Assembly (NCBI GenBank): GCA_017503735.1
Contig: JAFVSN010000037.1
Coordinates: 21,481-85,480 of the forward strand
Source: Lachnospiraceae bacterium
Lineage (GTDB): Bacteria > Bacillota > Clostridia > Lachnospirales > Lachnospiraceae
Reading direction: 5' to 3'
Length of the DNA stretch: 64,000 bases
A program made the translations under genes and the position numbers. The notes below the pieces were generated by a model that worked only from the letters and a program-made list of their open reading frames with translations, was not told the DNA's origin and did not search any database. Each line of letters begins with the position of its first letter. Position 1 is the first letter of the stretch. Shown here piece by piece: positions 3,363-64,000 of the stretch.

Positions 3363-5105
3363 ATGAAAACAACACTTTGTAACCACATCACGACTGCACT
3401 TCCGGGCATTTCCGCGGACACCGTCGCAGAACTGTTGGCAGTCCCTCCGGAAGCAGCCATGGGCGACTTTGCCCTGCCTTGCTTTTCCTTTGCCAAAGCC
3501 TTGCGAAAAAGCCCTGCGCTTATTGCAGAGGATATAAAATCCGCTCTTTTTCCGGTTTTTACCATGCTTGGAATTGACCGTATCGAAACCGTGGGCGGCT
3601 ACTGCAACTTCTTTTTTAACCGCACCGCTTACGCCAAGGACTGTCTTCTCAAACTACAAACCGAGACTTTAGGTGTAGACCAACCGGGCACCGGCAAAAC
3701 CGTATGCATGGACTACTCCTCTCCCAACATTGCCAAAAACTTTCATGTAGGTCATTTGCGTACCACTGTCATCGGCAATTCTCTGTATAAAATTTTTGAC
3801 AAATTGGGCTGGCATGTGGTTCGTACTAACCACTTAGGCGACTGGGGTACCCAGTTCGGAAAGCTCATTGTCGCTTATAAGCTTTGGAGCAGCAAAGAAC
3901 AAGTAGAAGAAAAAGGAATCGAAGAATTGCTTCGGATCTATGTGAAGTTTAATGCCGAAGAAAAGGTACATCCGGAACTGACAGAGGATGCCCGCGCCTG
4001 GTTTGTGAAAATGGAGCAAAACGATCCGGAAGCACTTTCTTTCTGGAATTGGTTCAAGGACATCAGTATGATTGAATTTGAGCGTGTCTACAACCTACTC
4101 CACATGTCCTTTGACTCCTACACCGGAGAGAGCTTCTTCCGGGAAAAAGTCCCGGCACTGGTCACAGAACTCACGGAAAAGAACCTTCTTACGGAAAGTC
4201 AGGGAGCCAAAATCATTGACCTGTCGGCCTATGATATGCCACCTTGCCTTATCCTGAAAAATGACGGCGGTTCCATCTACCACTCCCGTGACATTGCAGC
4301 TGTCCTGTACCGAAAGGAAACCTATGACTTTGACAAATGTCTCTATGTTACAGGTCTCGAACAAAGCCTTCACTTTAAACAGGTCTTTCAGGCAGTGAAG
4401 CTCATGGGCTATGATTGGACAGACTCTCTGGTGCACATTCCTTACGGTCTGGTAAGTCTCGGAGGCTTGAAGCTTTCCACCCGTGGCGGACACATCATCT
4501 ACGCCGAGGATATTTTAAAGGAAGCCATTTCCCGTGCCCTTGCCGCCATCGAAGAAAAAAATCCGAACCTAACAGACAAAGAATCCGTGGCGCGGATGGT
4601 AGGCGTGGGCGCGGTTATTTTCCACGACCTCTTTAACCAGCGTATCAAAAACGTAGAATTCTCCTGGGACGAGGTCTTAAGCTTTGACGGCACCACCGGC
4701 CCTTATGTGCAGTACACCTGTGCCCGGGCAAAAAGCGTGTTGCGGAAAGGCAATTTCTGCTCCGATACCGCCGATATTGCCGACACCTCCGCTGGCATAG
4801 CAAAAGACACGCTTGCGGATATTGATTTTTCCGTTTTCACCGACGACTGCAGCTATGCCTTAATCAAGACGCTGTCCGGTTACAACGACGCGGTACAGGC
4901 CGCCGCCGAGCGTTACGAACCGTCCGTTATCGCACGGTATCTGATTTCCGTTGCCGCCGCCTTTAATAAATTCTACCATGAATGTTCCATTCTTCATGCC
5001 GAGGAGCATGAGAAAAAAGCCCGTCTGGTTCTGACGGACTTAGTACAAAAGGTATTAACAGACGGATGCGAATTGCTTGGCATGGAGTGTCCGGAGGAGA
5101 TGTAA
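3363..5105 (+). CDS. argS: Arginyl-tRNA synthetase
   Basis: 580 residues, class I synthetase that charges tRNA-Arg in the cytoplasm. The HIGH-type signature is FHVGHLRTT at residues 127-135. The KMSKS-equivalent loop is KLSTRGG at 370-376, the usual degenerate form in this family. The N-terminal additional domain (about 1-110) and the C-terminal anticodon-binding helical domain (about 455-580, with TGPYVQYTCARAKS before it) are both present. The ATG at 3363 follows AGGAGGTTTCTT. Expression is probably set by the upstream leader peptide and attenuator. It is monocistronic, ending at the terminator at 5148. Confidence 0.95.
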   Translation: MKTTLCNHITTALPGISADTVAELLAVPPEAAMGDFALPCFSFAKALRKSPALIAEDIKSALFPVFTMLGIDRIETVGGYCNFFFNRTAYAKDCLLKLQTETLGVDQPGTGKTVCMDYSSPNIAKNFHVGHLRTTVIGNSLYKIFDKLGWHVVRTNHLGDWGTQFGKLIVAYKLWSSKEQVEEKGIEELLRIYVKFNAEEKVHPELTEDARAWFVKMEQNDPEALSFWNWFKDISMIEFERVYNLLHMSFDSYTGESFFREKVPALVTELTEKNLLTESQGAKIIDLSAYDMPPCLILKNDGGSIYHSRDIAAVLYRKETYDFDKCLYVTGLEQSLHFKQVFQAVKLMGYDWTDSLVHIPYGLVSLGGLKLSTRGGHIIYAEDILKEAISRALAAIEEKNPNLTDKESVARMVGVGAVIFHDLFNQRIKNVEFSWDEVLSFDGTTGPYVQYTCARAKSVLRKGNFCSDTADIADTSAGIAKDTLADIDFSVFTDDCSYALIKTLSGYNDAVQAAAERYEPSVIARYLISVAAAFNKFYHECSILHAEEHEKKARLVLTDLVQKVLTDGCELLGMECPEEM

Positions 5106-39497: not shown

Positions 39498-40943
39498 TTA
39501 CCCCCTTCTGATAGCGTTGTATTTGTGATATTTTCCATGCTCCGCATACTGATTCAGCGGGTCATGCATAGGCTTCTTCTTTGTTTCTATTACTCTCGGT
39601 GCAATCGGACGCATCATGCAGAAATAGCGAATTTCATCACATGCATGGTCTTCCAAATCAGAATCCAAATCCTCAACAACATGTTCATCAAACATCATCA
39701 ACGGAATTGTTCGGATTGAATCTTTGCACGTATCGAAAAAATATATCATCGCATATCCGTTCTCATCGAACTTCATGCGTTCTCTCACTTGCATCCATCC
39801 CGGTATTCTGTCGTTCACCCCAGGGTCAAACCAAAGCTGATGTTTCTCTGCTACCTCGGCAGCAGAAACGCCTCTTGAACCGTCCCATATGGAAGGATCT
39901 GCAACGCCTTGTATCGTCTTACCCCTTAACCACGGATGCTCTCGCTCTATTTGTGCTATCTTCCCGAACATAGCCTCATTGCTCCACTTAACACCCTCGT
40001 TCGGTGTGCCGGTGCATCCGTACAGCTCCAATATCCGGTACGCAACACCTTCATAGTCCACGGCCCACCATCCGCATGAGAACGGTTTGCCATAACCCCA
40101 GTCATAGGACCGGTATATCTTCCAGTCCTTCGGAATCTCAAACGGCTCAATAACATGGGTGAACTTATGATCTTCCATTGCCTCTTCTTCCGTTATGCCG
40201 GCATCGTGACACATCTGCGGCTCCGGTGTGATACGGAACTCCTCGAAGTATGCACCCTCAAAGACATCCCATCTGCCTTCCAACCACGCCTTTCTGAGTT
40301 TCGGCGGTAACGCTTCAAGCTGTCTGATATAGTCTGGATCGCTCTCCATGAGTGCCTTATTATCCGTCACAAGAGACTGAATGAACTCATAGTCCTCTGG
40401 ATACTCACCCTTCTCGTACTTCTTATCGATAAAGAGACGTTTAATGTATCCATGTCCGATTCCGCCCGGATTGCAAGTGTAGTACACGCGCTTCGGAAAT
40501 CCGTTTACACCACGCACACACGCTACAATCTTCTTAATCTGCGTCTCGGAAAGCTGTGTTGCTTCGTCCAGGAAGAGGACATCTACCTCAGTACCCTGAT
40601 ACCGGTCTACATCTTTCTCTGAGTCGCAGTATCGGAATAGGATGCGGCTCCCATTCTTGAACCGTATCTCCTTCTTGCTGTCGTTGTACCTCGCGATGCT
40701 TCCGGGCATTCCGCACTTAAGCAACTCTTTTAACGGATTGATATGGTTTTCTGTAAGCTCCGGATATGATTTACGGACAATCATTACCTTTATGCCGGCC
40801 CACCTCAAACACATGAGTACCGCCTTGATTCTTACCACCCAGGACTTGCCGCCACCTCGCGCGCCGCCGAAGCAAACGTGCTTCTTCCTAGCCTTAAGGA
40901 ACTTCTTCTGCTTTGGTGATGGTTCCGGAATATCAATCTGCAT
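39498..40943 (-). CDS. Terminase large subunit
   Basis: 481 residues. ATPase: Walker A GARGGGKS (27-34) and Walker B VLFLDEAT (122-129, catalytic Glu after Asp), with a coupling motif YTCNPGG near 150. RNase-H-like nuclease: YRSYDWGYGKPF (about 264-275) supplies the first Asp, with VADPS later. It cuts and pumps genome concatemers into the prohead. ATG at 40943 was chosen because AAAGGTGG precedes it at good spacing and it overlaps the small-subunit stop by 11 nt; a GTG at 40955 is possible. Confidence 0.92.
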   Translation of the reverse strand: MQIDIPEPSPKQKKFLKARKKHVCFGGARGGGKSWVVRIKAVLMCLRWAGIKVMIVRKSYPELTENHINPLKELLKCGMPGSIARYNDSKKEIRFKNGSRILFRYCDSEKDVDRYQGTEVDVLFLDEATQLSETQIKKIVACVRGVNGFPKRVYYTCNPGGIGHGYIKRLFIDKKYEKGEYPEDYEFIQSLVTDNKALMESDPDYIRQLEALPPKLRKAWLEGRWDVFEGAYFEEFRITPEPQMCHDAGITEEEAMEDHKFTHVIEPFEIPKDWKIYRSYDWGYGKPFSCGWWAVDYEGVAYRILELYGCTGTPNEGVKWSNEAMFGKIAQIEREHPWLRGKTIQGVADPSIWDGSRGVSAAEVAEKHQLWFDPGVNDRIPGWMQVRERMKFDENGYAMIYFFDTCKDSIRTIPLMMFDEHVVEDLDSDLEDHACDEIRYFCMMRPIAPRVIETKKKPMHDPLNQYAEHGKYHKYNAIRRG

Positions 40944-57259: not shown

Positions 57260-58321
57260 ATGCCGAGAAAAAGACAGATAATGCGGAATCCGAATAACTA
57301 CGGAACTATCAAGAAGCTGTCCGGGAACCGCCGCCGCCCATGGATGGTGGGTGTGAACCCGAAGATAAACGACAAAGGGACATACACCTATGATATTTTA
57401 GGATACTACGAGGATCGGACCGAGGCCATGATTGCCTTGGCGGAGTACAATAAGAATCCGGTAGACCTCACGAACAAGAATATAACTTTCGAGGAAGTAT
57501 ACCGGCTATATTATGAGGATAAGTATGTAAAATCCAAAAAGAAGCTTTCAAAGGCATCGGAAACAAGCACACGCACCGCATTCAACAACTGCAAAGAAAT
57601 ACACAACAGAAAATTTCTTGATTTGAGACATTCCGATTTACAACAAGTCATAGATGATTGTCCGCTAAGACACGCATCTCTTGAACTTATTCTTACGCTA
57701 TTTAAGGGGATGTACGCTTTCGCTATGAAAGAAGATATAACTCAAAGAAATCATGCAGAATTTGTGAAAATCAATATTGAGGACGATGATGAACATGGAG
57801 TACGCTTCACAAATGAGTCTGTGGCCTCGTTATGGGAGCACACAGAGGTTTTTCCATTTACAAAGGTTATTCTTATCTACCTTTATACCGGATGGCGTGC
57901 AAGGGAATTTTCGGAGATGAAAAAGGAAAGCATTGACCTTGACAACATGATTATGACCGGCGGATTAAAAACCAAAGCCGGGAAGAACAGGGTCGTTCCG
58001 ATACACCCAAAAATACAGGGCTTTGTACGTGAGCTTTACAACGCATCCGATAACGAATATATTTTGCCATCGAAAAAAGGGGCCATGTCATACTTCAAAC
58101 TTTATACCTACTTCATGCAAACATTATCGGATGTCGGTATAAAAGAAAAGTACACACTCCACGATTGCCGCCACACCTTCGATTCCTGGTTGGATGATGC
58201 CGGTGTCCCGAATACAATACGGAATCTTCTCATGGGACATTCCGGAGAGGGCATTGACGAAAAAGTATATATCCACAAAACAATAGAACAGCTACGGGAA
58301 GCTATCGAAAAGCTCCCGTAA
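57260..58321 (+). CDS. int: Tyrosine-recombinase integrase
   Basis: 353 residues. N-terminal arm-binding region (NYGTIKKLSGNRRRPWMVGVNPK, Tn916-Int-like AP2-type), SAM-like core-binding domain (about 75-165) and catalytic domain with Arg213 (YTGWRAREF), His301-x-x-Arg304 (LHDCRHTF), His327 (LLMGHSG) and nucleophile Tyr337 (KVYIH). It recombines attP with attB and sits next to attR. ATG at 57260 follows GAAAGGAAGTGATTTTTTT. All catalytic residues are present. Confidence 0.93.
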   Translation: MPRKRQIMRNPNNYGTIKKLSGNRRRPWMVGVNPKINDKGTYTYDILGYYEDRTEAMIALAEYNKNPVDLTNKNITFEEVYRLYYEDKYVKSKKKLSKASETSTRTAFNNCKEIHNRKFLDLRHSDLQQVIDDCPLRHASLELILTLFKGMYAFAMKEDITQRNHAEFVKINIEDDDEHGVRFTNESVASLWEHTEVFPFTKVILIYLYTGWRAREFSEMKKESIDLDNMIMTGGLKTKAGKNRVVPIHPKIQGFVRELYNASDNEYILPSKKGAMSYFKLYTYFMQTLSDVGIKEKYTLHDCRHTFDSWLDDAGVPNTIRNLLMGHSGEGIDEKVYIHKTIEQLREAIEKLP

Positions 58322-60368: not shown

Positions 60369-63233
60369 ATGAAATACAGAAAGATACTTTTACTATCCTT
60401 ATTTACAATACTGTTTTCCCTACTTTCCCTTGCTTGTAAAAAATCCTCTGGGGAGCTTGTTCCCACGGAGAACGGTCTTCCGGCTCCGGAAACTTCATCT
60501 GATGATTTTCTAAAGCAACCTTCTGTTACTCCTTCCAACGAAACCGTTACCGATGACCCTTTTACCAACACCATCCCTCAGGAAATAAAAGAAAAGGCAA
60601 AGACCTTCCCTGATGTAAACGGAACACTCCCTGATTGGCACGGTACCCATATTGCTGACAAAGGCGAATTTGCATGGCCTTGGGTAGGTATTGAATCAGA
60701 ACCGGAAAAAATCACGGAAGAACACGTTGCCGAAACCTGGTTTGATGAAGCCACCGTATTAGAAATTGCCCATGCCGGATATAACTTTGTCCGCGTTATC
60801 ATTGATACCCGCTTCTTTTTCACCGAAGACGAATATTTGGCACTTCCTTATGTAGGAAGTGAGTTCTACGGAAGCATCGATACCGTTAATCTGAAACAAT
60901 ATAAAAATCTGGACGATTTAATCACGTGGTGTATTGAAAACGATATTCACGTATGTATCGACTGCCATTCTACCCCGGGTGGCCTAATGATAGGCGGAGA
61001 TGAAGAAGAATCCAGACGTGAGCTATTTACTCCCGATTCTGATGCACAAAAAATTTTTGTACGTTACTGGGATATTTTAGCCCACAGATACGCAGATATC
61101 AGTCCTAATGCCTTAAGCTTTAACCTGTATAACGAGCCGCCGTTCTTCGTACGTGAAAGTGAAGATCTGTATATCGACCTGATGAATCAGGCCATCGATA
61201 AGATACAATCCGTTACACCAAATCGTTTAATTTTTGTAGATGCACATTCTTACAGTACTGCCGGGTTAGATCAGGTTTCTCGGCTGCATGCCAACAATCT
61301 TGCTATCGGATTTCATTTATATGCCAACGGCAGCACCTGGGCAGAAGAAGGCTTCCCGTTAGATATGCGTGCATGCAAAAGTGAAATAGAAGAACGAATG
61401 GACTATTATAACTCCTGGGCAAAAGAAAACAATGTCCGCTGGATGCTTCAGGAGTACGGATGCTCTACTTATTACACTCAAAAGCAACAGGCCGATTATC
61501 TTAAAATTCAAGTAGACGCCTGCAAAAAGATCGGGGTTGCTTATTGTCATTACGCTTTTAATGTCGGTTCTTTCGGAGTATGTCTTTGGGAAGAGAACGG
61601 TTATCAAACTCCGGGGGCTCCTTATAGTAAAACCCACGCGGGTCATCTTATAAATACTGAGCTGGTACAAATAACCACCGATACCACCTATCCTGGCACA
61701 ACCGGAGCTTCCCTTATTGACCCTGCTGATTATTATGACCGGGTAGAACAGCGCATTGCAAAGATTCGTGCCTCCGAAACAACCATAGAACCCGTAGGAA
61801 CTGTTTTTTATATTTCATCCTCCACCGGAAACGACAATAATGACGGACTCACACCGGAAACTGCCTGGAAAACCTGTGCCAGAATGAATGAAGATCCCGA
61901 CGGGTCCATCAAAGCAAGTGTAGATAAATACGGCGGTGCCACTATTTTATTCAAACGGGGTGACGTATGGCATCGGGACGGTATTTCCTTATGGTATCCG
62001 AACATGATCTACTCCACTTACGGAGAAGGTGAAAAACCGATTTTTGATTTTTCCTTGGAGGATGCTGCTAATCCTGAGGATTGGACCTTACTGGAAGGTA
62101 CCGATAACATATGGGTTTACCGTAAAAAGGTACCTTTCTTAGGTTCTATGACATTAAATGATACCTATTCTGCCGACAATCATGAGGGCTTCTATTGGGA
62201 TGGGGTTTGGTACGAAGCATGTTCCGGAGGCATTCATTGGAATTGGGAGGGCAGAATCTGCCACTACGAAAACAAGAACCTATATGATGTAACCGCGCTT
62301 CCCAACGAATCCTTTTTCGTGGATGTCCGACCCGGAGACAAATGGCTGGATGAAGCCTCCGGACAGCTATATGTCTACGACTGCGACGAAGTCGGCACAC
62401 TCTATTTCAGCTGTGACAAAGGAAATCCCGGCGATGTTTATGAAAGCATCGACTTATGTAACGGTTTCGGAGTACATTGCGGAAACGCTTGTACTTATGA
62501 TAACTTAGTAGTAAAAAATGTAGGAAATCAAGCATTTGCAAATTTTGCCGGTGAAGATTGCATCGGATGTACTCTGCAAAATTGTGAAGTATATTTCTGC
62601 GGTGACCAATACATCAACTTCGACCCAGAGGGCCACATCGGTTATGTAGGCGGCGAATGCGGAGGTTTTCATGGTGCCGGAAGCCGTTATTATAACAACT
62701 ACTTCTATGGAAGCCGTGAAGGTGGCTTTACTGTAGAAATCGGATGGACAGGAAACACAGACGGTCACACCGTAACTTTGGGTGATGTCGTTGCCGAAGG
62801 AAATGTATTCCATAAATGTGACGGCGCCATCGGAATCATCTGCTTCCTTGAATCCGCTGACGAAGTTGACATGTCCAAAGTATCCATTCACGATAATTAC
62901 TTTGTAGAAATCGGTTGTTTCCACGATGAAGACGGAAACGATCCCCGTTCCCTCGGAGCAATCCATTTCTGGGACAATTCCGGGAATGTAAACACAGCTG
63001 ATTTTTCAATTTCCGACAATCTTTTCTTCTATACCGACGACAGAGTCATTAACCTGGAACAAGTAGAAGACGCAAGATTTTTACATACAGAAGGAAATAC
63101 CGTAATTCTAAAAAAACATTCTGAAATGAACTGTTTGCGCCTTACCAACCAAAAAGGAATGTTCTACTATAATACTCTCGAAGAAATACAACCAGTTTTA
63201 GGTGATTTTGGTGAAATTCTTTGGACAAACTAA
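60369..63233 (+). CDS. Lipoprotein fusing a GH5-like glycosidase to a right-handed beta-helix domain (954 aa)
   Basis: Signal peptide with lipobox LSLAC (Cys23), so anchored outside the membrane; a Ser/Thr/Pro linker follows. The first domain (about 75-440) is a GH5-type barrel: FNLYNEPPF with acid/base Glu256 and MLQEYG with nucleophile Glu362, plus CHSTPGG and FHLYANG. The second (about 478-954) begins VFYISSSTGNDNNDGLTPETAWKT, the entry motif of many parallel beta-helix proteins, and carries repeated Asn-rich turns (NCEVYFCGDQ, GNVFHKCDGA, DNYFVEIG). It probably cuts a plant or host polysaccharide at the surface. Promoter, AGGAGG and ATG are clear. The beta-helix could be a lyase, epimerase-like or binding module; its activity cannot be read. 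Confidence 0.82.
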   Translation: MKYRKILLLSLFTILFSLLSLACKKSSGELVPTENGLPAPETSSDDFLKQPSVTPSNETVTDDPFTNTIPQEIKEKAKTFPDVNGTLPDWHGTHIADKGEFAWPWVGIESEPEKITEEHVAETWFDEATVLEIAHAGYNFVRVIIDTRFFFTEDEYLALPYVGSEFYGSIDTVNLKQYKNLDDLITWCIENDIHVCIDCHSTPGGLMIGGDEEESRRELFTPDSDAQKIFVRYWDILAHRYADISPNALSFNLYNEPPFFVRESEDLYIDLMNQAIDKIQSVTPNRLIFVDAHSYSTAGLDQVSRLHANNLAIGFHLYANGSTWAEEGFPLDMRACKSEIEERMDYYNSWAKENNVRWMLQEYGCSTYYTQKQQADYLKIQVDACKKIGVAYCHYAFNVGSFGVCLWEENGYQTPGAPYSKTHAGHLINTELVQITTDTTYPGTTGASLIDPADYYDRVEQRIAKIRASETTIEPVGTVFYISSSTGNDNNDGLTPETAWKTCARMNEDPDGSIKASVDKYGGATILFKRGDVWHRDGISLWYPNMIYSTYGEGEKPIFDFSLEDAANPEDWTLLEGTDNIWVYRKKVPFLGSMTLNDTYSADNHEGFYWDGVWYEACSGGIHWNWEGRICHYENKNLYDVTALPNESFFVDVRPGDKWLDEASGQLYVYDCDEVGTLYFSCDKGNPGDVYESIDLCNGFGVHCGNACTYDNLVVKNVGNQAFANFAGEDCIGCTLQNCEVYFCGDQYINFDPEGHIGYVGGECGGFHGAGSRYYNNYFYGSREGGFTVEIGWTGNTDGHTVTLGDVVAEGNVFHKCDGAIGIICFLESADEVDMSKVSIHDNYFVEIGCFHDEDGNDPRSLGAIHFWDNSGNVNTADFSISDNLFFYTDDRVINLEQVEDARFLHTEGNTVILKKHSEMNCLRLTNQKGMFYYNTLEEIQPVLGDFGEILWTN

Positions 63234-63234
63234 G

Positions 63235-63639
63235 ATGTACGTGAGAAGGCACACGGACCGGAGCGGAGACTTCGAACTCGATGTACGTGAGAAGGCCCAA
63301 GACGTCCGGTGGACGTCTGCTCTGCGCGGACCGGAGTGAAGCGGTCCAAGACATCCGGTGGATGTCTGTTCTGGACGGACCGTAACGAAGTGTAGACGAA
63401 TTCGAACTCGTTCGAAGACGAACCTTGGGTTACAATGTACGTGAAAAGGCGCACGAGGTCCGGTGGACCTCGGTTCTGCGCGGACCGAAGCGGAGCGGAG
63501 AATTCGAACTCGTTCGAGTCCAATGCCTTAGTTTCAGATGTACGTGAGAAGGCGCACGAAGTCCAGTGGACTTCGGTTCTGCGCGGACCGAAGCGGAGCG
63601 GAGAATTCGAACTCGTTCGAGTCCGAACCGGACTCGAAC
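63235..63639. repeat. Array of tRNA-Arg-derived hairpin repeats
   Basis: Units begin ATGTACGTGARAAGGC at 63235, 63281, 63435 and 63538; the 14-bp ATGTACGTGAGAAG equals the end of the adjacent tRNA-Arg (complement of its acceptor strand). Full units run about 87 bp and finish AATTCGAACTCGTTCGAGTCC, which overlaps the T-loop sequence of the same tRNA. Inside, hairpins covary: GACGTCC/GGACGTC (63301), GACATCC/GGATGTC (63350), GAGGTCC/GGACCTC (63455), GAAGTCC/GGACTTC (63558). No convincing gene; the ORFs here are products of the repeat. Confidence 0.8.
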
Positions 63640-63679
63640 AAAAAGAAAGAGATAGGATTTATCCTATCTCTTTCTTTTT
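63640..63679 (-). terminator. Terminator of the tRNA operon
   Basis: Perfect 19-bp stem (63640-63658 with 63661-63679), two-base loop, and T-tracts on both strands, 6 bp past the 3' end of tRNA-Arg. Confidence 0.88.
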
Positions 63680-63685
63680 ACACGA

Positions 63686-63759
63686 TGTACGTGAGAAGAT
63701 TCGAACTCCCGACACCTTGGTCCGTAGCCAAGTGCTCTATCCAGCTGAGCTACACGTAC
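63686..63759 (-). tRNA. tRNA-Arg (anticodon ACG)
   Basis: 74 nt. Acceptor GTACGTG/CACGTAC with discriminator A, D-arm AGCTCAGCTGGATAGAGC, anticodon loop CTACGGA within TTGGCTACGGACCAA, T-arm GTTCGAATC. The A34 would be edited to inosine and read CGU/CGC/CGA. No encoded CCA. Last gene of the leftward tRNA operon. Confidence 0.95.
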
Positions 63760-63794
63760 ACACAACATGAAGTTGTTTGCAGTAAAACTGCAAA

Positions 63795-63880
63795 TGCCGC
63801 AGACCGGAATCGAACCGGTACGGGAGATTAGTCCCGCAGGATTTTAAGTCCTGTGCGTCTGCCAGTTCCGCCACTGCGGC
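63795..63880 (-). tRNA. tRNA-Leu (anticodon TAA)
   Basis: 86 nt with acceptor GCCGCAG/CTGCGGC, anticodon loop around ACTTAAAAT, a class II variable arm (GCGGGACTAATCTCCCGT) and T-arm GGTTCGATTCC. It reads UUA/UUG codons. Confidence 0.95.
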
Positions 63881-63925
63881 ACAGTCTTACTAAAGTAAGT
63901 ACTTGATGAATCCCTAAGGATTCGA

Positions 63926-63998
63926 TGGGGCCTATAGGGCTCGAACCTATGACCCTCTGCTTGTAAGGCAGATGCTCTCCCAGCTGAGCTAAGACCCC
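63926..63998 (-). tRNA. tRNA-Val (anticodon TAC)
   Basis: 73 nt: acceptor GGGGTCT/AGGCCCC (one G-U), D-arm TAGCTCAGCTGGGAGAGC, anticodon loop CTTACAA, T-arm GGTTCGAGCC, discriminator A. The operon probably continues beyond the window edge. Confidence 0.94.
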
Positions 63999-64000
63999 GC

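Follow-up and report, generated by a model that had tools for sequence, protein, structure and literature searches.

Several described systems resemble the locus reported here. The rtT repeats of Escherichia coli tyrT are tandem units located downstream of a tRNA gene, each of which carries a tRNA 3' end, and the Rickettsia palindromic elements (RPEs) have, to our knowledge, no transposase of their own. In the part of the source drawn on here, RPEs are described as short palindromes of about 150 bp with a conserved peptide, which fall into ten families and are found in many copies, in frame within unrelated protein genes, and in-frame palindromic insertions of this type are unusually frequent in Rickettsia (PMC10969869). 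REP-like palindromes are also sometimes located inside genes, as stated in the portion of a second source that deals with them (PMC3733652). We analysed a stretch of 64,000 nucleotides (the window) from a Lachnospiraceae bacterium, in which an array of tRNA 3' ends is interrupted by copies of a compact hairpin-forming sequence, hereafter the core. The core is quite probably a short palindrome in the DNA, non-coding and 53-54 nt long, which spreads through the Lachnospiraceae by insertion as RPEs do in Rickettsia, and our best reading is that it represents a new family of proliferating palindromic elements, biased towards tRNA T-arms and duplicating the tRNA 3' end.

The window ends in a minus-strand tRNA cluster (tRNA-Arg with anticodon ACG, tRNA-Leu and tRNA-Val), and the array lies between tRNA-Arg and a gene with a GH5 cellulase domain (60369-63233; 954 amino acids, domain at residues 127-398), the stop codon of which is one base from the array. 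Read from right to left, tRNA-Arg is followed by a 19-bp inverted repeat (63640-63679), a 25-bp palindrome and then the array (Table 1). A gene of the phage-integrase family (57260-58318) is located approximately 5 kb away, so that an island at tRNA-Arg is possible. The array units are copies of the tRNA-Arg 3' end in which a 54-nt core interrupts the T-stem/T-loop junction: the intact gene reads GTACGTGAGAAG^ATTCGAACTC, and units C and D read GTACGTGA(G/A)AAG-core-ATTCGAACTC. An earlier note on this DNA had described tandem units at 63235-63639 that carry tRNA-Arg 3'-end and T-loop pieces, and the pieces are present where it placed them. With one additional base, the tRNA-Arg(ACG) 3' end (63685-63698) reads ATGTACGTGAGAAG, which recurs at 63235, 63281 and 63538, with a one-base variant at 63435, and the closing sequence TTCGAACTC or AATTCGAACTC is found at 63271, 63399, 63501 and 63604. 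The proposal of one hairpin of about 50 bp per unit applies to cores C and D, but the second tRNA end is followed by two fused cores and the first only by a remnant (63249-63270); four cores score in our covariance model, two of them fused, in addition to the remnant. The tandem period is 103 bp (2.3 copies, 63398-63629) rather than the 87 bp given for the unit. Folding of the 405-nt stretch is better than that of 100 out of 100 shuffled sequences on both strands (z of -4.95 on the minus and -4.07 on the plus strand). A 16-mer from the tRNA end, with up to three mismatches allowed, has five matches in the window against 0.49 expected: three are in the array, one is tRNA-Arg itself and one, at 39718, is unrelated.

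Table 1. Features of the tRNA-Arg array and its surroundings (positions in the window).
Feature	Position	Strand	Basis
Leftmost tRNA-Arg 3' end copy (acceptor and T-stem strand)	63235..63248	-	identical to 63685-63698
Remnant core without hairpin, then T-loop piece TTCGAACTC	63249..63279	+	sequence
tRNA-Arg 3' end copy	63281..63294	-	sequence
Core A, cut at foot of mini-hairpin 2, fused to core B	63294..63342	+	covariance model, 53.4 bits
Core B, complete	63343..63396	+	covariance model, 74.6 bits
T-loop piece AATTCGAACTC	63399..63409	-	sequence
tRNA-Arg 3' end copy, one base changed	63435..63448	-	sequence
Core C, complete	63448..63501	+	covariance model, 81.0 bits
T-loop piece AATTCGAACTC	63501..63511	-	sequence
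tRNA-Arg 3' end copy	63538..63551	-	sequence
Core D, complete	63551..63604	+	covariance model, 79.4 bits
T-loop piece AATTCGAACTC	63604..63614	-	sequence
Palindrome GTTCGAGTCCGAACCGGACTCGAAC, between array and terminator-like repeat	63615..63639	.	sequence
Perfect 19-bp inverted repeat with A/T runs, terminator-like, between tRNA-Arg and array	63640..63679	.	sequence
tRNA-Arg(ACG), intact, source of the copied 3' ends	63686..63759	-	tRNA detection

The core, of 53-54 nt, consists of a bulged hairpin, GACCG, a mini-hairpin and GnAGA, and its full plan is G, outer stem, inner stem, RGK loop, inner stem', GYNN bulge, outer stem', GACCG, mini-hairpin with a GNA loop and GnAGA, often with a following C. 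Mini-hairpins with GNA loops are unusually stable DNA structures. The inner stems of the four window cores (AGACGTCC, AGACATCC, CGAGGTCC and CGAAGTCC) differ at three base pairs, not two as first noted, although every difference is compensated as had been claimed; the core at 63294 has one mismatch in its outer stem. From a set of 168 distinct cores, drawn from a pattern scan, IMG/VR and the loci collected before these, 135 had a regular tail (127 of them distinct) and 80 diverse ones were chosen, 76 of which form a gap-free alignment, four 55-nt cores being left out. Further copies keep the stem pairing, as had been predicted: 97.5% of 1140 cells are paired over these 76 cores compared with 81.6% in shuffles, 187 changed cells are double against 13 changed on one side, and the covariation score is 0.472 against 0.168 in shuffles. 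None of 500 shuffles reached any of these three values, and sliding of the partner strand gave 26-45% pairing. Two weaker measures of covariation, how many pairs show a double change and how many further pair types occur, were reached by 147 and 11 of 500 shuffles, respectively. Covariation is seen in the long hairpin as well as in the 2-bp mini-hairpin, the latter being 99.3% paired with a GAA (42 of 76) or GGA (34 of 76) loop, and in divergent copies the mini-hairpin appears by eye to be swapped for longer self-complementary hairpins. DNA folding supports the long hairpin, and the mini-hairpin as drawn is not the minimum, so that the latter rests on covariation.

Strong covariation of this kind might also be expected of a structured RNA, conserved for its transcript as a regulator, a processing signal or a mimic of the tRNA end. 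The tRNA and tmRNA loci in which cores are found are transcribed, and GnAGA is located just ahead of a start codon in some copies. However, only 15 of 1111 paired cells are G-U, which suggests that the palindrome is maintained in DNA, on both strands, and not as RNA; moreover the orientation of the core relative to the tRNA is mixed, no Rfam family corresponds to it, and copy number is patchy within one family, from none to about 30. We therefore consider a structured RNA very unlikely, and mimicry of the tRNA end, one of three options raised in the earlier note, is not favoured. In the window and ten stretches of the own genome, nothing reached the Rfam gathering score except tRNA, tmRNA and one c-di-GMP-I riboswitch, and at an E value of 10 no match in window 63000-64000 extended more than two bases into the cores. 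The core is a unit independent of the tRNA, and the elements are not assembled from tRNA pieces as had been supposed. The view that no named element has this design agrees with the lack of an Rfam match and with our search of the open-access literature, in which no description of such an element from Lachnospiraceae or Butyrivibrio was found.

BLAST searches with the element gave matches at 17 places in its own genome and in 16 of 41 genomes (own included), among which are all ten of the genus. The covariance model revealed at least 31 copies in the own genome, the assembly of which is 94.63% complete; the model scored 150 candidates in the own-genome scan and 39 or 14 candidates per genome otherwise, so that copy numbers are lower bounds. 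Twenty-two of the 31 copies are located in six tRNA or tmRNA loci (four at tRNA-Arg, five at tRNA-Leu, four at tRNA-Met, four and one at tRNA-Gly and four at tmRNA), and the remaining nine in stretches without a tRNA according to ARAGORN. Among 145 genomes searched with the model, 48 match, of which 47 are the own genome or belong to its genus or family and one to its order, with listed copy numbers of 0-30. In a class-wide sample, 18 of 391 genomes match, nine in the family (own included) and nine in other families; two of the latter score highly (79.3 and 62.2 bits) and seven reach at most 46.5 bits. In four genomes from other families of the class (G531, G354, G167 and G437) the model has multiple matches that are weak and often share one score; these are perhaps related element families. 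A pattern scan of GTDB genomes, in which several core bases were fixed, matched at least 117 stretches, and 80 titles among these are mostly Lachnospiraceae or genera placed there, a few giving only Eubacteriales, Clostridiaceae, Clostridia or bacterium. The core is present in five IMG/VR contigs, and phage and plasmid collections searched at an E value of 1e-5 yielded one unannotated phage record and no plasmid. Phages could spread the core. In two similar viral contigs from IMG/VR (L038 and L042) it stands where an HNH endonuclease gene ends; the copy of L042 is in frame, and that of L038 was placed by eye.

In loci from named genomes, 43 of 135 copies lie within 500 bp of a tRNA or tmRNA, compared with 5.8% of random positions in the same loci, and 92 are not within this distance of a detected tRNA or tmRNA; counts of tRNA-near copies are lower bounds because contigs end. 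Thirty-three of the 43 are on the 3' side (25 in opposite and eight in the same orientation) and ten are upstream, five each way. Among 87 copies with flanks that lie within 600 bp of a tRNA, 57 have at least one flank matching the neighbouring tRNA with a score of 20 or more, against 2.3% of 1612 single flanks in the control, the observed value being the better of two flanks and the control only one. Taken singly, the 5' flank matches in 50 and the 3' flank in 29 of the 87, and some few matches are the interrupted tRNA gene itself. When isotypes were compared for the 5' flanks of 88 copies within 600 bp, the neighbour was best in 46, three were ties, two fitted another isotype better and 37 scored too low, while 25 of 149 copies not near a detected tRNA also have a tRNA-like 5' flank. 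The suggestions that copies sit beside tRNA genes and that their tRNA-like ends match the neighbour thus hold for part of the copies only. In congener G009, both tRNA-Arg and its single downstream unit have GTGCGTGAGAAG, a one-base acceptor difference from the GTACGTGAGAAG of the window species; judged from this shared base, the unit ends appear to derive from the neighbouring tRNA of the same genome.

Integrases typically duplicate the 3' part of a tRNA. The units carry just this part, a phage-integrase gene is present in the window, and most tRNA-near copies are downstream of the tRNA (33 of 43), as would be found if the units were scars of integrative elements, tyrosine integrases having placed islands at tRNA 3' ends and left duplicated ends, with the hairpin as part of the integration site. 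As a general account this is already weak, however, as the nine own-genome and 92 named-genome copies are not near a detected tRNA, copies are present in protein genes, within one another and in other repeats, and the match at 39718 is the only one to the tRNA-Arg end, at three mismatches, outside the array. It is improbable that integrative scars explain the core. Of the options in the earlier note, a mobile miniature element targeting tRNA-Arg fits best as far as mobility is concerned, but the six tRNA and tmRNA loci and the other sites show a wider range of targets.

Filled and empty sites define what is inserted. In the own genome (G000) one copy (L294) splits an ArsC-like gene, by eye, and is out of frame; the same core is found at this site in congener G004 (L414), whereas G003, G005 and G006 are empty, and the element has therefore been gained or passed on within the genus. 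The two cores are identical and their flanks differ at many bases; they may go back to a single event inherited by both. At tRNA-Arg (cores C and D), at tRNA-Pro (L252), in nested cores and in the ArsC-like gene, the net gain is 53 nt, corresponding to alignment columns 2-54, and 0-2 adjacent bases have been replaced; the nested and tRNA-Pro cases were compared by eye. At L049 two further bases are missing. When the flanks of the tRNA-Pro copies at L049 and L252 are joined, they align through the junction with intact tRNA-Pro genes among the matches listed. No target-site duplication was seen at the ArsC-like, nested, tRNA-Arg and tRNA-Pro sites. Among 167 distinct contexts, 95% have G in alignment column 1, with G before it in 66% and purines preceding, and 74% have C after AGA. 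Because a gain of 53 nt breaks the reading frame, copies that are in frame must contain additional bases or be composites, such as L269 with 28 residues.

Open reading frames pass through cores on both strands, and PrxQ-like, C-GCAxxG, PolC, DltB-like and aminotransferase genes also carry copies with the frame left open. A first Pfam search took ten proteins chosen by eye, and a second took 19 of the 36 remaining candidate ORFs together with L082. A domain continues in frame across the insert in a PrxQ-like peroxiredoxin (L152, in which AhpC-TSA spans residues 5-148 for profile positions 2-122), a C-GCAxxG protein (L044) and an aminotransferase (L269), the last having 28 residues more than G146 at the insert, where the core alone would account for 18. 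The DltB-like gene (L084) carries two copies in an open frame with domains on one side and, by eye, flanking repeat sequence; the frame of PolC (L078) is open and the insert precedes the recognised domains. Four further copies (L064, L150, L042 and L073) are at or near the C terminus. In the second batch a domain was detected in only three of 20 (L086, L093 and L124), and most of these candidate ORFs are therefore probably spurious. In G077 the core lies inside a compound repeat (loci L257-L266) on several contigs with differing surroundings; such larger repeats with a core inside are found in several genera, which indicates that some copies have spread as passengers. A core within a core, at the same apical point, occurs in G003 and G007 and also at L012. 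Elsewhere the GnAGA end is a few bases before an ATG (L126 near 2991 and L117 near 1285), where the core may supply or carry a ribosome-binding site.

Set beside the descriptions of RPEs, the core appears closest to them in behaviour: it is a short palindrome with many copies, in frame in unrelated genes (L152, L044 and L269; also L084 and L078), and is open in the reading frame used. In contrast to RPEs it has 54 nt and two hairpins, belongs to another phylum, is markedly biased to tRNA T-arms, and includes both frame-keeping and frame-shifting copies (L294). As the rtT repeats are generally described, they too are tandem units following a tRNA gene and containing its 3' end, but they represent one locus and not a family across tRNAs, tmRNA and genes. 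The core resembles miniature inverted-repeat transposable elements (MITEs) in being non-coding, short, palindromic and present in many copies, although it lacks a target duplication at the compared sites and no parent transposon was recognised.

An origin as a REP/REPIN-like element moved by a Y1 (RAYT) transposase, or as a PATE-like IS200/IS605 derivative, would fit the size, the bulged hairpin, insertion without visible target duplication and copies inside genes, and REPs in genes are known from the part of the literature cited above (PMC3733652). The REP/REPIN and GTAG/CGTC repeats are likewise short hairpins, but no GTAG/CGTC tag was recognised here by eye, a bulge lies within the stem, and Y1 is not associated with the element. 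We found no match to Y1 transposase (PF01797) in the own genome or in eight of the ten genus members, and among 41 genomes it is present in six of 19 with the element and in 11 of 22 with no match listed. Y1 was rejected as the mobiliser, as it is missing from a genome with at least 31 copies and its presence does not track the element, and we regard a REP- or PATE-like origin as unlikely. No parent with split ends, in which a gene would separate one end from the other, was recognised among 161 right halves in the studied loci. Ten of these 161 have no preceding hairpin, two being cut by the locus edge and the others, by eye, in arrays or beside altered hairpins; the search covered right halves. 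Neither the own genome nor the genome sets searched for Y1 and split-end parents yielded a mobilising enzyme.

Returning to a proliferating palindrome, the folded single-stranded DNA core would be moved by an enzyme that it does not itself encode and would join behind a G-rich or purine stretch, often in a palindromic target, with replacement of 0-2 nt. tRNA T-arms, being hairpins too, would be preferred landing sites. As insertion into a single essential tRNA would be lethal, the surviving lineages are probably those in which local duplication preserved or restored an intact 3' end. What persists at essential tRNAs would be an intact tRNA with its terminator and, behind these, another tRNA 3' end that is interrupted and that arose by duplication or by template switching at hairpins. 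The window array may then reflect repeated rounds of insertion and 3' end duplication. At L252 the distal half of the interrupted tRNA-Pro and its terminator are identical to the intact gene over 54 nt, as far as the stretch reaches, and at L127 an inverted tRNA piece is seen by eye at the junction, which together suggest template switching. A bolder version, which we consider tentative and rather doubtful, is that the core is an active single-stranded DNA hairpin, moved by some host or phage enzyme with a preference for tRNA and tmRNA T-arms, and that insertion itself restores an intact tRNA through duplication of its 3' end and terminator, allowing essential genes to be colonised without cell death; a small number of interrupted tRNA genes whose stems are intact may even stay functional.

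Such a palindrome would be a second, apparently unrelated case of in-frame insertion, smaller and tRNA-biased, in abundant gut bacteria, where the way in which these sequences move would become testable in cultivable organisms. The core would also give rise to short peptides inserted into enzymes and to arrays of tRNA pseudogenes.

Three loci contain whole tRNA genes whose T-loop or variable loop harbours a core, namely L068 (tRNA-Lys), L045 (tRNA-Asn and a second gene) and L049 (tRNA-Pro), stem pairing having been judged by eye. The genome of L068 has three tRNA-Lys(TTT) genes among 64 tRNAs read, two of them uninterrupted. In that of L049 the 42 tRNAs read include no tRNA-Pro(CGG) other than the interrupted one, tRNA-Pro(TGG) also being present; 150 of 230 candidates were scored in one of these searches and 150 of 151 in the other. 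A functional interrupted tRNA is not supported at either locus, given the uninterrupted tRNA-Lys(TTT) genes in the first and, in the second, a T-stem that looks damaged, the existence of tRNA-Pro(TGG) and an assembly that is a MAG. The interrupted gene of L068 is duplicated, and that of L049 is damaged and plausibly dispensable. The L045 contig, with cores in two tRNA genes, has a dense tRNA cluster and is phage-like by eye. On the minus strand of L018, a core (3749-3802) is located just downstream of a c-di-GMP-I riboswitch aptamer (3876-3966).
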